The position numbers were made by a program, and so were the translations under genes. A stretch of 64,000 nucleotides of DNA from Caulobacterales bacterium (GTDB lineage Bacteria; Pseudomonadota; Alphaproteobacteria; Caulobacterales; Caulobacteraceae). The notes beneath the pieces were generated by a model. The model searched no databases. It worked only from the letters and a program-made list of their open reading frames with translations, and was not told the DNA's origin. The stretch is taken from assembly GCA_016183935.1 (NCBI GenBank), contig JACPDR010000028.1, positions 1 to 64,000 on the forward strand. The letters are read 5' to 3'. Of the stretch, positions 4,309 through 25,230 are shown in pieces (position 1 is the first letter of the stretch; the number at the start of each line of letters is the position of its first letter).

Positions 4309-4578
4309 ATGTCGATTACTGCTGACCGCAAGCACGAAGTCATCGCCGACAACGCCCGCACCGAGGGCGACACCGGTTCGGCCGAGGTCCAGGTCGCGAT
4401 CCTCTCGGAACGCATCGCCAACCTCACCGAGCACTTCAAGACCCACAAGAAGGACAACCACTCGCGCCGCGGCCTGCTCAAGATGGTCTCGCAGCGTCGT
4501 CGCCTTCTTGACCACCTGTCGAAGGTCGATCGCGAGCGCTACACGGCGCTGATCACCAAGCTGAACCTGCGCCGCTAA
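4309..4578 (+). CDS. rpsO: 30S ribosomal protein S15
   Basis: 89 residues, exactly the usual S15 length. S15 binds the central domain of 16S rRNA early in assembly and forms an intersubunit bridge. Conserved segments [42 protein letters not shown] and the C-terminal [12 protein letters not shown] are present. A good ribosome-binding site (AGGAG) precedes the ATG. In many bacteria S15 and PNPase are co-transcribed and separated by RNase III cleavage; the hairpin found just downstream fits this arrangement. Confidence 0.98.
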
Positions 4579-4607
4579 GGGCGCCGGGGACGAGCGGAAG
4601 AGTTTTT

Positions 4608-4634
4608 CGAGGCGCGGGCCACGTCCGCGCCTCG
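4608..4634 (+). promoter_or_regulatory. Perfect hairpin in the rpsO-pnp intergenic region
   Basis: CGAGGCGCGG and CCGCGCCTCG form a perfect 10-bp stem with a 7-base loop, 30 bases after the rpsO stop. No T-tract follows, so it is a poor terminator and more likely an RNA processing or stability element. In enterobacteria the rpsO-pnp spacer carries RNase III-cleaved hairpins used in PNPase autoregulation; assigning that role here is inference. The remaining roughly 190 bases before pnp show no gene. Confidence 0.6.
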
Positions 4635-4828
4635 TTCCGCATCCAGAACCAACCCGCGCGCCGCGGGGTTATCCGGCGCATGACGCGAGGGCTGAAACCG
4701 GTCCTCAACCACTCCCGGGCGGTTCGCGATGGCGCGGACGTCCATGGACCGAAGGACTGAACGCCCGACGCTCCACCCACTGATGGGACCCCGCGCGGAA
4801 TCCGCCCGCGGGACACGAAAGACGAAAC

Positions 4829-7057
4829 ATGTTCGATATCAAACGCAAGACGATCGACTGGGCCGGCCGCCCGCTGACGCTGGAAACGGGCCGCATCGCT
4901 CGCCAAGCCGACGGCGCCGTTCTGGCGACCTACGGCGAGACCGTGGTCCTGGCCACCGTCGTCTACGGCCGCGCGCCCAAGCCGGGCCTGGATTTCTTCC
5001 CGCTGACCGTCAACTACCAGGAAAAGACCTTCGCCGCCGGCAAGATCCCGGGCGGCTATTTCAAGCGTGAAGGCCGTCCGACCGAGAAGGAGACCCTGGT
5101 CTCCCGCCTGATCGACCGTCCGATCCGCCCGCTGTTCGTCAAGGGCTTCAAGAACGAGACCCAGGTCATCGTCACCGTCCTCCAGCACGACATGGAGAAC
5201 GACCCGGACGTGCTGGGCATGATCGCCGCCTCGGCCGCCCTGACCATCTCGGGCGTGCCCTTCATGGGCCCGATCGGCTCGGCCCGCGTCGGCTATATCG
5301 ACGGCGAGCTGGTGCTCAACCCGACCCTCGACCAGATGCCCGACAGCCAGCTCGACCTCGTCGTCGCCGGCACCCAGGACGCCCTGATGATGGTCGAATC
5401 CGAAGCCAAGGAGCTGTCGGAAGAGATCATGCTGAACGCCCTGATGTTCGCGCATCGCGGCATGCAGCCGGTGATCGACGCGATCATCGACCTGGCCGAG
5501 CACGCCGCCAAGGAGCCCTTCGACTTCCAGGCCGACGACGTCTCGGACGTGGTCGCCTCGATCCAGAAGCTGGTCGGCGAGGATATCAAGGCCGCCTACA
5601 CCCACGTGGGCAAGTACGACCGCCGCTCGGGCGTCGACGTGGCCAAGAAGAAGGCCGCCGAAGCCCTGGTGAAGACCGAGGAGAAGCCGGACGGCGTCGA
5701 CGCCTCCAAGTTCGCCACGGCCTTCAAGGAATGCGAAGCCCACGTCCTGCGTCGCGACATCATCGACAACGGCCACCGCGTCGACGGCCGGGCCCTCGAC
5801 AAGGTCCGCTCGATCGTCTCGGAAGTCGGCGTCTTCCCGCGCACCCACGGTTCGGCCCTGTTCACCCGCGGTGAGACCCAGGCCATCGTCGTCGCCACCC
5901 TCGGCACCGGAGAGGACGAGCAGTACGTCGACGCCCTGAGCGGCACCTACAAAGAGAAGTTCCTGCTGCACTACAACTTCCCTCCCTATTCGGTCGGCGA
6001 GACCGGACGGATGGGCGGCGCGGGCCGTCGGGAAATCGGTCACGGCAAGCTGGCGTGGCGGGCCATCCGTCCGATGCTGCCGTCGTCGGAAGAATTCCCC
6101 TACACCATCCGTCTGGTGTCGGAGATCACCGAGTCCAACGGCTCGTCCTCGATGGCCACGGTCTGTGGTTCGTCGCTGGCGCTGATGGACGCGGGCGTGC
6201 CGCTGAAGCGTCCCGTCTCGGGCATCGCCATGGGCCTGATCCTCGAGCCGTCGGGCGAGTTCGCCATCCTGTCCGACATCCTGGGTGACGAAGACCACCT
6301 CGGCGACATGGACTTCAAGGTGGCCGGCACGCGCGAAGGCATCACCTCGCTGCAGATGGACATCAAGGTCGCGGGCATCACCGAAGAGATCATGCGCAAG
6401 GCGATCGCCCAGGCTTCGGCCGGCCGTCTGCACATCCTCGACGAGATGGACAAGGCCATCGACGGCGCCCGCACCGAGCTGGGCGAGTTCGCGCCCAAGA
6501 TCGAGCAGATCAAGGTTCCGGTCGACAAGATCCGCGACATCATCGGCACCGGCGGCAAGATCATCCGCGAGATCGTCGAAAAGACCGGCGCCAAGATCAA
6601 CATCGAGGACGACGGCACGGTGAAGATCGCCGCTTCCGAGCAGGAGAAGATCGACGCCGCCAAGAATTGGATCTCGTCGATCGTGTCCGAGCCCGAGCCC
6701 GGCATGATCTACTCCGGCAAGGTCGTGAAGGTCGTCGACTTCGGCGCCTTCGTGAACTTCTTCGGCGCCAAGGATGGCCTCGTCCACGTGTCGCAGATCG
6801 CCATGGAGCGCGTCGCCAACCCCGCCGACGTCCTGACCGAAGGTCAGGAAGTGAAGGTGAAGTTCCTGGGCATGGACGACCGCGGCAAGACCAAGCTGTC
6901 GATGAAGGTCGTCGATCAGGAAACCGGCGAGGACCTGACCGACAAGATCAACGCCGAGCGCGCCGAGCGTGGCGAGCCCCCGATGTCGGAAGACACCGGC
7001 GGCCGTCCGAAGCGTGAAGGCGGCGGCGACCGCGACCGCGGCCGCAGCCGTCGTTAA
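4829..7057 (+). CDS. pnp: Polyribonucleotide nucleotidyltransferase (PNPase)
   Basis: 742 residues. A 3'-to-5' phosphorolytic exoribonuclease and RNA-degradosome component. Two RNase PH-like domains are seen (about residues 1-230 and 310-545), joined by an alpha-helical linker. They are followed by a KH domain ([19 protein letters not shown], about 565-600) and an S1 domain ([20 protein letters not shown], about 628-695). The last 30 residues are a charged Arg/Gly/Asp-rich tail, probably unstructured. The [14 protein letters not shown] motif and the [19 protein letters not shown] stretch belong to the active-site PH domain. A strong terminator follows 28 bases after the stop. Confidence 0.98.
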
Positions 7058-7084
7058 GACGCGGCGTCACAGCTGAAATGAAGG

Positions 7085-22808: not shown

Positions 22809-22953
22809 CATGGGCGCCAGGGCCAACGCCGATCGAAGGGCCGGCGACGCCCCGATGAGAGGAATAATCGCTTCAGCCCGCGGGATACTTTTGCGACAAC
22901 TCCGAAGCACGGTGATCGACGGCGCACTTTCGCGCCGTAAAAGGACACAGCGC

Positions 22954-23364
22954 ATGAAAACGCTTCTCAAGGGGACGCTTCTCGTCGGCCTGATCACGGT
23001 CGGGGTCGCCACAGCCGCCTACGCCCTGCAGGCGAACCACGGCTTTAGTCCCGCTTCACTGGACGCCGACGGCGACGGAGTCATCTCGACGACCGAGCTC
23101 GACACGCACGCCGATCTTCTGTTCGCCCGGACGGATCAGGATCATGACGACCAGCTGTCCGCTGACGAGCTCCGCGCCCTGCATGCGATGATGCCGGCCG
23201 GCGCGCCGATGGATCACGCCCGGGACCATGCCCCGGCCCCCGTGAGCCGGCAGGCGTTCCTCGCGGCCCTGCGCAGCCATGCGACGCAGATGGATGCGGA
23301 CCGGGACGGCCGGTTGACCGTCGCCGAGCTGGCCGCCGCGATGCAGGGCGGCCATGGTCACTGA
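22954..23364 (+). CDS. EF-hand calcium-binding exported protein
   Basis: 136 residues. An N-terminal hydrophobic segment (about 7-25) exports or anchors it. Three 12-residue EF-hand loops follow: 37-48 (DADGDGVISTTE, a perfect match), 61-72 (DQDHDDQLSADE, Gly replaced by Asp at position 6) and 114-125 (DADRDGRLTVAE). A His-rich stretch between loops 2 and 3 and a GGHGH C-terminus could bind transition metals. AAGGA precedes the ATG. Its stop codon abuts the start of a response regulator, with no gap, so the three genes form an operon. The product probably buffers or senses calcium in the periplasm; the link to signalling is inferred from the operon. Confidence 0.88.
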   Translation: MKTLLKGTLLVGLITVGVATAAYALQANHGFSPASLDADGDGVISTTELDTHADLLFARTDQDHDDQLSADELRALHAMMPAGAPMDHARDHAPAPVSRQAFLAALRSHATQMDADRDGRLTVAELAAAMQGGHGH

Positions 23365-24132
23365 ATGCGGAAATCCGGCGACATGACCCGGGGCGGGGAC
23401 ACGGCCCTTCCGGGGCGCACCCTGCCCCGGGTCATCGTCGTCGAGGACGAAGGCGACATCCGCGAACCCCTCGCCCGGTATCTGACGCGCAACAGTTTCC
23501 AGGTGACGGCCGTCGGTAGCGCCGAGGCCGCCCGCGGCGCGCTAGCGGCGGGCGGCTGCGACCTGCTGCTCGTGGACATCATGCTGCCGGGCGAGGACGG
23601 CCTGTCGCTGACGCGACAGGTCCTGACGACCACCGACATTCCGGTGATGCTGGTCACCGCGCGCACGGAAATGGCCGACCGTTTGACCGGGCTCGAGCTC
23701 GGCGCCGACGACTATATCTGCAAGCCCTTCGATGCGCGCGAGCTGGTGGCGCGGATGCGGACGGTCCTGCGTCGCGTCCGGCGGACCACCGGGACCATCG
23801 ACGCTCCGGTTTCGCACCGCTTCACTTTCGGCGACTGGACGCTGGCGACGGACACGCGCTGCCTGCGCCGTGGCGAGGAGGCGCCCCGGCCCCTGACGAC
23901 CGGAGAATACCGGCTGCTTCTTTCGCTGGTCAGCCGCCCGGGGCGCGTGCTGAGCCGAGACCAGCTCCTCGAGCTGACCGCCGGCCGCGACGCCGAGCCC
24001 TTCGACCGCAGCATCGACAACCAGATCAGCCGGCTCCGGCGCCGACTGGAAGACGACCCCCGCAACCCGCGCTGGATCAAGACGGTCTGGGGCGCGGGCT
24101 ATATGCTGGACGCGAAGGTCACCCGGACATGA
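23365..24132 (+). CDS. OmpR/PhoB family response regulator
   Basis: 255 residues. Receiver domain with the acidic pair VEDE near residue 28, phospho-acceptor Asp at about 71 (LLLVDIMLPGEDG), conserved Thr (MLVTART) and Lys (YICKPF). The C-terminal winged helix (about 155-250) has the family features LTTGEYRLLLSLVSRPGRVLSRDQLLEL, then IDNQISRLRRRLE and KTVWGAGYML. It starts directly after the stop of the EF-hand gene and overlaps the kinase gene by four bases (ATGA), so the three are translated together. The targets are unknown; autoregulation of this operon is plausible. Confidence 0.93.
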   Translation: MRKSGDMTRGGDTALPGRTLPRVIVVEDEGDIREPLARYLTRNSFQVTAVGSAEAARGALAAGGCDLLLVDIMLPGEDGLSLTRQVLTTTDIPVMLVTARTEMADRLTGLELGADDYICKPFDARELVARMRTVLRRVRRTTGTIDAPVSHRFTFGDWTLATDTRCLRRGEEAPRPLTTGEYRLLLSLVSRPGRVLSRDQLLELTAGRDAEPFDRSIDNQISRLRRRLEDDPRNPRWIKTVWGAGYMLDAKVTRT

Positions 24133-25118
24133 AGCTGCGCCTGCCCGCACCGTCCCTGCGGGCGCAGTTGCTGCTGATCGCGGTCGGCGGCTTCGTCGTC
24201 GGCCATATGCTGAACTGGATGCTGGCGAGCGGCCTGCGGCATCTGCATGGGGGCTATCATCTGTTCATGCCGGTCAGCGTGCTGACCTTTCTCGCCCTGT
24301 TGGCGACGGTGGCCTGGCTTTCGGCGCGCGTGACCCGGCCGCTTCGGCGACTGACGGAATCCGCCGACCGGTTTTCGGGCGTCGAGCCCCTGCAACCGCT
24401 GGAGCCTGAGGGCCCGCCCGACATGCGGCGCGCCATTGAGGCTTTCAACGGGCTCAGCCAACGCATCTCGGACTTGCTGGGCGAAAAGGACCAGATGCTG
24501 GGCGCGCTCGGCCACGACCTGCGCACCCCGCTCGCCTCCATGAAGATTCGGGCGGCCGGCATGCGGCCCGTCGAGGAGCGGACCGCCCTGTTCTCGACCG
24601 TGGACGGCATGGAGCGGATGATCGACGATATCCTGACCCTGGCGCGAACCGGTCGGTCAGCCGAACCCGTGACGCAGACCGACGTCAGGGCGCTCGTTCT
24701 CGGAATCGTCGGCGAGTTTACGGCCCAGGGCGCCACGGTCGAGCTCGAACCGGGTCAGGAAATCGTCTGGCCTCTCAGACCAGACCTTCTGACCCGGGCG
24801 GTCAGAAACCTCGTCGACAACGCCGTCCGGTATGCGGGAGGCGCGCGGTTGAGCCTGGCCGCCGACGGCCAGTATCTGGTTATCCTCGTCGACGATGACG
24901 GTCCGGGGCTGCCCGAGGATCAGCTCGAGCGCGTCCTTCGGCCCTTTTCGCGTCTGGACCAGTCGCGGAACCGCGCAACGGGCGGGGCGGGCCTGGGTCT
25001 GGCGATCGCCCTGTCGATCGCGCGCCTCCATGGCGGAAACGTCGAGCTCAGAAACCGCGCGGACGGGGGTCTGGCGGCGGCCCTGCGGCTGGGCCGCGCC
25101 CCGTCGGAGGAACCCTGA
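24129..25118 (+). CDS. Compact membrane sensor histidine kinase
   Basis: 329 residues, short for a membrane kinase. Two membrane segments (about 12-33 and 47-66) enclose a periplasmic loop of only about 15 residues containing several histidines (RHLHGGYH), so a large extracellular sensor domain is absent. HAMP follows (about 67-118), then the H-box GHDLRTPLAS (His about 129), N-box LVDNAVRYAGG, and G-boxes DDDGPGLPEDQ and GGAGLGLAIALSIA. The tiny loop suggests that it senses via a partner protein, and the co-transcribed EF-hand protein is the obvious candidate; this is inference. Confidence 0.92.
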   Translation: MKLRLPAPSLRAQLLLIAVGGFVVGHMLNWMLASGLRHLHGGYHLFMPVSVLTFLALLATVAWLSARVTRPLRRLTESADRFSGVEPLQPLEPEGPPDMRRAIEAFNGLSQRISDLLGEKDQMLGALGHDLRTPLASMKIRAAGMRPVEERTALFSTVDGMERMIDDILTLARTGRSAEPVTQTDVRALVLGIVGEFTAQGATVELEPGQEIVWPLRPDLLTRAVRNLVDNAVRYAGGARLSLAADGQYLVILVDDDGPGLPEDQLERVLRPFSRLDQSRNRATGGAGLGLAIALSIARLHGGNVELRNRADGGLAAALRLGRAPSEEP

Positions 25119-25191
25119 CCGCTCGACTCGCCGGACCGCCTGGGGTCCGGCCCGTCGGCGTGCATCGGCGCCCTGGACTCCGGGCACGAAA

Positions 25192-25230
25192 AAGCCCGCC
25201 GCGGGGGATACATCGCGGCGGGCTTCTTTC
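25192..25230 (+). terminator. Intrinsic terminator after the EF-hand/two-component operon
   Basis: Twelve-base arms AAGCCCGCCGCG and CGCGGCGGGCTT with a 10-base loop, preceded by an A-tract and followed by CTTTC. It also lies downstream of the convergent hisS, whose stop is at 25392; the rest of 25119-25391 shows no gene. Confidence 0.85.

Follow-up and report, generated by a model that had tools for sequence, protein, structure and literature searches.

An EF-hand protein gene encoded with an OmpR-type two-component system and a reduced sensor kinase in a Caulobacterales bacterium

We analyzed a 64,000-nucleotide stretch of DNA from a Caulobacterales bacterium (GenBank assembly GCA_016183935.1, contig JACPDR010000028.1, positions 1 to 64,000), referred to here as the window, in which a gene for an EF-hand protein is followed by genes for a response regulator (RR) and a sensor histidine kinase (HK). 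Sequence comparisons support the assignment of the EF-hand gene to this two-component system (TCS): the genes form a conserved cassette whose flanks differ between genomes, EF-hand genes recur beside related regulators, and an operator-like motif is found upstream of them. The EF-hand protein and the TCS are probably partners in the detection of extracellular calcium or of another metal.

To our knowledge, little is understood of how bacteria sense calcium outside the cell, and we know of few periplasmic EF-hand proteins with a known partner. In the open-access literature, as judged from titles and the openings of abstracts, we recognized no description of an alphaproteobacterial EF-hand protein whose gene accompanies a two-component pair. 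The recurrent linkage and the candidate operator together offer a directly testable system of one promoter, one accessory and one kinase. With its reduced form, the kinase provides a natural experiment in which accessory and sensor domain are separated, and the exchangeable slot beside the regulator hints at roles for small exported proteins without annotation that adjoin such regulators.

Results

The EF-hand, RR and HK genes lie under one conserved upstream block and constitute a self-contained unit (Table 1). A previous sequence-only reading of the window had described three genes that abut or overlap, and the coordinates bear this out: there are no bases between the EF-hand stop codon and the RR start, and the RR and HK genes overlap by 4 bases. 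An M13 peptidase gene lies upstream of the EF-hand gene, with the RR-HK pair downstream. The same reading had called the pair an OmpR-type regulator and a histidine kinase; both identities hold, with Pfam Response_reg and Trans_reg_C domains in RR and HAMP, HisKA and HATPase_c domains in HK, all above their cut-offs, as expected of an OmpR-type TCS. The nearest NCBIfam model for RR is OmpR, which it matches with 232 bits against a cut-off of 331.

Table 1. Features of the three-gene unit and its surroundings (window positions)
Feature	Position	Strand	Remarks
Candidate promoter/operator region	22863..22953	+	conserved block ACTTTTGCGACAACTCCGAAGCA at 22887-22909; homology with genome G021 begins at ~22863; TGCGACA common to other linked loci
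EF-hand protein gene	22954..23364	+	136 aa; Pfam EF-hand_1/5/6/7 above cut-offs
Probable signal peptide of EF-hand protein	22954-23025	+	by inspection
EF loop 1, DADGDGVISTTE	23062..23097	+	residues 37-48
EF loop 2, DQDHDDQLSADE	23134..23169	+	residues 61-72; Asp replaces Gly at loop position 6
Degenerate EF loop, RDHAPAPVSRQA	23221..23256	+	residues ~90-101; ligand residues lost; linked relatives intact here, e.g. DADGDGTVSPVE
EF loop 4 (third intact loop), DADRDGRLTVAE	23293..23328	+	residues 114-125
OmpR-type response regulator (RR)	23365..24132	+	255 aa; Pfam PF00072 and PF00486 above cut-offs; in-frame Met at 23383 is a possible start
Sensor histidine kinase (HK)	24129..25118	+	329 aa; Pfam HAMP, HisKA, HATPase_c; 16-residue periplasmic loop by hydropathy
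HxHGGxH in HK periplasmic loop	24240..24260	+	HK residues 38-44
GC-rich hairpin 3' of HK	25190..25229	.	probable terminator common to the convergent gene; by RNA folding; missed by a simple scan

Three stretches of the EF-hand protein are matched by both Pfam EF-hand_1 and EF-hand_6 above their cut-offs. Alignment with nine TCS-linked relatives shows a protein with four EF-hands in two pairs, the loops 24 residues apart within each pair and the third loop degenerate. Export is likely, because a hydrophobic segment spans residues 9-25 by hydropathy and a signal peptide is recognized by inspection. The earlier description of an exported protein with three EF-hand loops therefore agrees with the three intact loops and predicted export, and only part of its mention of His-rich stretches survives, since the His residues are present but modest in number and scattered around the degenerate loop and the C-terminus. 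In the likely export of a small protein encoded with an RR-HK pair, the unit resembles three-component systems of the CiaX or CpxP type. A single-sequence structure prediction for the mature protein (mean pLDDT 57) was too weak for a fold search; the same weak model places a strand pair at the degenerate loop, as at the other EF loops.

Known EF-hand families were considered and rejected. The match to lanmodulin (NF053806) reached 36.4 bits (E 4.6e-9) against an equivalog cut-off of 135, and that to XopAW-type effectors (NF041410) reached 42.8 bits against a subfamily cut-off of 120, with only the EF-hands in common. In LanM, EF loops are 24 residues apart in pairs and have Pro at loop position 2. 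The window protein has the same pair spacing, but it lacks Pro at loop position 2 and one of its loops is dead. Caulobacter CaBP (CCNA_02838) is described in the available text as a periplasmic protein of 133 aa with a Sec signal and three EF loops that is induced by calcium limitation and acid (PMC13171946). It is like the window protein, by description, in having three loops of which the second is atypical at position 6 (PMC13171946). It differs in adjoining the ECF sigma gene sigV, and the available text describes no linked TCS (PMC13171946); that gene context was rejected for the window, where the neighbours are the M13 peptidase gene and the RR-HK pair. A crude pattern search found no sigma-factor gene around the EF-hand loci, a result that carries no evidential weight.

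We then compared the unit with its closest relative. Kinase matches were listed for 61 genomes, counting that of the window; among them one other is full-length, from a genome of the same genus, G021, and it is 81% identical. DNA homology between the two genomes runs from 22863 to 25123 at 84% identity and ends on both sides, and the G021 unit is flanked by different genes, which by inspection are peptide deformylase-like and AraC-like. Because the homology is confined to this interval amid different flanks, the promoter and three genes behave as one cassette, which was possibly acquired. The dN/dS values against G021 are 0.30 for EF, 0.36 for RR and 0.25 for HK. The cassette is rare: in 149 family genomes (a sample without G021), a single protein other than the window EF-hand protein itself matched the latter with an E value of 1e-9 or below. 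At that match (G653, 41%), the EF-hand gene again accompanies an RR-HK pair, from which it is divergent.

The reduced periplasmic part of the kinase was also apparent in comparisons. Hydropathy analysis of the window HK predicts transmembrane (TM) helices at residues 10-28 and 45-63 with a loop of 16 residues between them, and the G021 kinase has a 12-residue loop. In contrast, the loop comprises 118-229 residues in every one of the 62 further relatives for which two helices were called; four of the 67 loci gave no second TM helix and L049 gave no output. Almost no periplasmic domain, as the sequence-only reading put it, is thus an apt description. Intramembrane-sensing kinases have two TM helices and a loop of under about 25 residues, and by hydropathy the window and G021 kinases are of this kind. 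They represent the two genomes known to carry the reduced form, and a search of the genome contigs with HK as the query returned two distant kinases only (L036, L037). Because HK has lost a sensor domain that the measured relatives keep, outsourced sensing is plausible. All other linked kinases that were measured keep a large periplasmic domain, however, so the EF-hand protein is not generally its replacement. Three His and two Gly residues of the loop are the same in the window and G021 (RHLHGGYH and RHMHGGQH), and the neighbouring residues vary.

The survey of genomes for EF-hand genes beside such pairs, which had been proposed with the sequence-only reading, revealed linkage beyond chance and three gene orders. 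With RR as the query, matches beyond E 1e-60 came from 38 of the 241 genomes of the class, and matches beyond E 1e-66 from 26 of the 299 genomes of the phylum, a sample that overlaps the class set. The class search yielded 47 places, 39 of which were taken with long flanks; a uniform scan covered 29 loci of that search (the window's own genome left out) and 23 new loci from the phylum search, together with 30 of 54 control places, all for one control OmpR-type regulator. An EF-hand ORF lay no more than 1.5 kb away at 25 of the 52 target loci (13/29 and 12/23 by batch) versus 0 of 30 control loci (Fisher p = 7e-7, a nominal value because the loci are related to one another). None was found within 1.5 kb at four loci outside the class (L153, L159, L161 and L162). 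Among 30 loci first taken around kinase matches, 18 have an EF-hand gene with at least two loops beside the pair, as does L058 by a looser loop pattern.

The linked loci carry 18 family codes (f1, f2, f4, f5, f8, f15, f18, f28, f62, f64, f67, f68, f109, f110, f116, f131, f142 and f146), and the EF-hand gene may precede the pair, diverge from it or follow it. In the window's genus, 15 of 20 loci are linked, 14 with the EF-hand gene divergent from RR (including L038, in the window's own genome) and one, in G021, with the window's order. Family f15 has EF-RR-HK on one strand at 12 of 13 loci, HK being seen where flanks were long; L158 is the exception. Sphingomonas parapaucimobilis, where the annotation of the first gene says no more than hypothetical, has this order too, from which we infer that f15 is probably Sphingomonadaceae. 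At L054, the EF-hand gene is behind the kinase. L038 (contig C39) is a second EF-hand/TCS pair of the window's genome, with divergent EF (5797-6438) and RR (4935-5669) genes and a Gly/His-rich protein of four EF-hands.

A tree of 68 RR+HK pairs showed that EF-hand linkage is clustered, with 11 changes versus 22.9 for shuffled labels, none of the 500 shuffles giving so low a number; L060 and L132, for which no HK was found, the 1.5-kb loci L068-L097, and L137 stand outside this tree. The window falls into a 10-row clade (SH-aLRT 97) that includes the tree's full set of six EF-first loci, together with L054 and three loci that have no EF-hand gene (L040, L041 and L124). The reciprocal search used a profile of linked EF-hand proteins against 114 class genomes. 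Of the 30 loci examined, eight have a related RR within 1.5 kb, all among the top nine; the other one of these nine (L232) is interrupted by a contig end, and 0 of the 21 remaining loci have a related RR. Five of the eight RR-linked genomes, the window's own included, had supplied rows of the profile, leaving G171, G165 and G122 as independent. The rank boundary is not sharp, because at least one linked gene, that of G063, ranks lower (E 2.6e-21, outside the 30 loci) and that of G070 was missed. Pfam PF13499 gave 13 matches in 10 genomes, 0-3 per genome, and 7 of the 13, in 6 genes, are linked genes; it missed those of G021, G123, G171 and G187 and therefore undercounts.

We next consider the DNA upstream of the EF-hand genes. 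The motif TGCGACA occurs in 18 of 21 upstream regions, in 27 copies, versus 0.70 expected from shuffles (maximum 4 in 500) and 1 in 60 control flanks. TGCGACA was first noticed in the very sequences counted, so that only the comparison with control flanks tests it independently. The 21 regions of 200 bases (260 for control flanks) are those with a marked start, from the window and 20 linked loci; the linked loci beyond them include the divergent ones at genus level, which have another motif, and L099, L102, L106, L120, L146-L148, L057, L058 and L054. Based on this distribution, the EF-hand gene is probably a direct target of its regulator.

Several f15 loci carry TGCGACA-N3-TGCGACA, a repeat with a 10-base period. 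In eight f15 genomes searched throughout, there were 26 sites at up to one mismatch versus 8 for the reversed pattern. Such a site is found at the EF-hand operon in seven of the eight genomes, which accounts for three of four exact matches. The fourth (L202, G476, ~1501) lies directly upstream of a NodT-type efflux channel gene (TIGR01845, 328 bits), as does a one-mismatch site (L223, G464, ~1501; TIGR01845, 324 bits), and a TGCGACA site in G468 (L208) is upstream of an RcnB gene. The repeats ahead of NodT-type outer-membrane genes hint at an efflux regulon.

The window itself has one clean copy of TGCGACA and a poor second half-site, and neither its genome (G000) nor G021 contains the f15 repeat pattern. 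With three mismatches allowed, the window block ACTTTTGCGACAACTCCGAAGCA occurs at one place in each of these two genomes; block ACTTTTGCGACAANTCCGAAGCA is likewise unique in each, as a pattern so long that looser sites could be missed. The divergent system at genus level has a different but similar operator, CATTTCA-N4-TGAAACA-N14-TGAAACA, which is conserved with few changes in the 12 loci aligned. The operator of this type from the L038 system has one exact place in its own genome, and its first half has one further place at two mismatches (control, 1).

The EF-hand protein is the commonest of several accessories found beside relatives of this regulator in Alphaproteobacteria. LTXXQ proteins (Spy/CpxP type) take the EF slot at L113, L119, L123, L129, L136 and L126, cytochrome c' does so at L111, and Microvirga has Spy/CpxP there by record annotation. 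PepSY-like proteins were recognized by eye at L112, L122, L130 and L134, with no Pfam match at E 0.01. Two Sphingobium plasmids (L164 and L165), typed as conjugative and of which one was scanned, carry RcnB-RR-HK at ~4569-7066; an EF-hand gene lies ~3 kb downstream of HK on these plasmids. Other contents were noted in passing. In family f8, the EF-hand gene is in the slot at L099, and a glutamine cyclotransferase-like exported protein, identified by eye, is nearby at L100 and L101. L150, L166 and L055 have no EF-hand gene; by inspection, membrane-fusion efflux genes are divergent from the related regulator.

TGCGACA lies within 1.3 kb upstream of RR at 24 of 30 EF-hand loci, 3 of 8 LTXXQ loci, 1 of 5 PepSY-like loci, the single cytochrome c' locus (1/1), both RcnB loci (2/2), 1 of 3 further genus loci and 0 of 6 out-clade loci. 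Where LTXXQ or PepSY-like proteins fill the slot its occurrence is patchy, which argues against accessories simply being swapped under one fixed operator. The sequence-only reading had taken the EF-hand protein for the sensor module, and had named relatives with the pair and the same regulon but no EF-hand gene as the case against it. Relatives with the pair but no EF-hand gene do exist, including the three in the window's clade, and TGCGACA is kept within 1.3 kb upstream of RR at 9 of 17 plain loci, where the pair has no evident accessory. The pair and motif without an EF-hand gene tell against an obligatory sensor. What stands of that claim is that the EF-hand gene appears to be part of the system and that the window kinase is without a sensor domain. 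The protein would suit the role of a conserved target or of a feedback accessory equally well.

Discussion

CpxP-CpxRA, BaeSR-Spy and ZraP-ZraSR are systems in which a periplasmic accessory adjoins, or is controlled by, a TCS. The accessory differs here in being an EF-hand protein, and LTXXQ proteins occupy its slot in relatives. By analogy with CpxP-CpxRA or CiaXRH, the EF-hand protein is best read as an autoregulated, exchangeable periplasmic accessory. Our preferred reading, held with about even confidence, is an autoregulated three-component system whose exported EF-hand protein reports a cation to the kinase. The EF-hand protein would be exported to the periplasm and bind Ca2+ or another hard cation. 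RR would bind TGCGACA-type sites and drive the operon, thereby placing the EF-hand protein under the control of its own system. In its metal-bound or metal-free form, the protein would then act on the membrane part of the sensor-less kinase, whose activity would be set in a feedback loop, as by CiaX for CiaRH and CpxP for CpxA. More tentatively, the sensor-less kinase may hand sensing to a diffusible, self-controlled EF-hand protein within a pan-alphaproteobacterial family that swaps its accessory like a cartridge (EF-hand, RcnB, Spy/CpxP or cytochrome c'), the regulator persisting and the operator motif being present at part of the loci; we consider this broader scheme rather doubtful.

The main rival, a real possibility though not the reading we would choose, makes the EF-hand protein an output only: an autoregulated protein that buffers cations in the periplasm or protects the envelope and takes no part in signalling, with the kinase itself detecting membrane or envelope stress. 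Spy/CpxP-type and RcnB proteins, which share the slot, are known mainly as targets. TGCGACA upstream of NodT-type efflux genes (L202 and L223) and of the RcnB gene (L208) also fits an output role, as does the existence of the pair without an EF-hand gene. However, an output role accounts poorly for a window kinase with almost no periplasmic sensor, and for the retention of the EF-hand gene in so minimal a cassette.

It is unlikely that the kinase senses Cu, Zn or Ni directly through HxHGGxH, with the His-bearing EF-hand protein delivering or buffering the metal and calcium having a structural role. The constancy of the three His and two Gly residues while their neighbours vary would suit such a kinase, but it comes from two sequences that are 81% identical and is weak evidence. 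The His residues in the degenerate EF loop and the presence in the same slot of RcnB, a nickel/cobalt-linked family, in Sphingobium point the same way. Against this, three EF loops retain calcium-type ligands, and the most similar described protein, a likeness judged by description in the available text, binds Ca2+ (PMC13171946). That the EF-hand gene is a chance neighbour, tied to the pair by no more than a common transcript, is very improbable. Full-length kinase matches in two genomes only, among the matches listed, speak for it, as does an EF-hand match at E 1e-9 in just one genome other than that of the window among 149 of the family (without G021). The survey disfavours it through linkage of 25/52 versus 0/30 and through PF13499, which has no more than three matches in any of 10 genomes and of whose 13 matches 7 are in linked genes.

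For the three-component system that we favour, the closest described parallel is CiaXRH of Streptococcus mutans, in which a small calcium-binding component is encoded with RR and HK; in the available text it is termed a three-component system, and calcium represses expression of the operon via CiaX (PMC8317062, PMC10574481). The logic is the same as proposed for the window, but CiaXRH is Gram-positive, its calcium-binding domain is SD-type rather than EF-hand, and, unlike the window, the available descriptions mention no kinase without a sensor domain.

Metal-responsive systems are also described in Caulobacter. According to the available text, UzcRS and UrpRS are uranium-responsive TCSs, UzcRS responding to Zn and Cu as well, with exported and efflux targets, and UipA of Microbacterium is a uranium-binding PepSY protein (PMC8963506). 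The UzcR motif, CATTAC-N6-TTAA, differs from TGCGACA (PMC8963506). 'Uzc' is absent from the main text on cabp, as available; the locus tags of cabp (CCNA_02838) and UzcRS (CCNA_02842, 02845) are nevertheless close, which raises a possible link between them (PMC13171946, PMC8963506).
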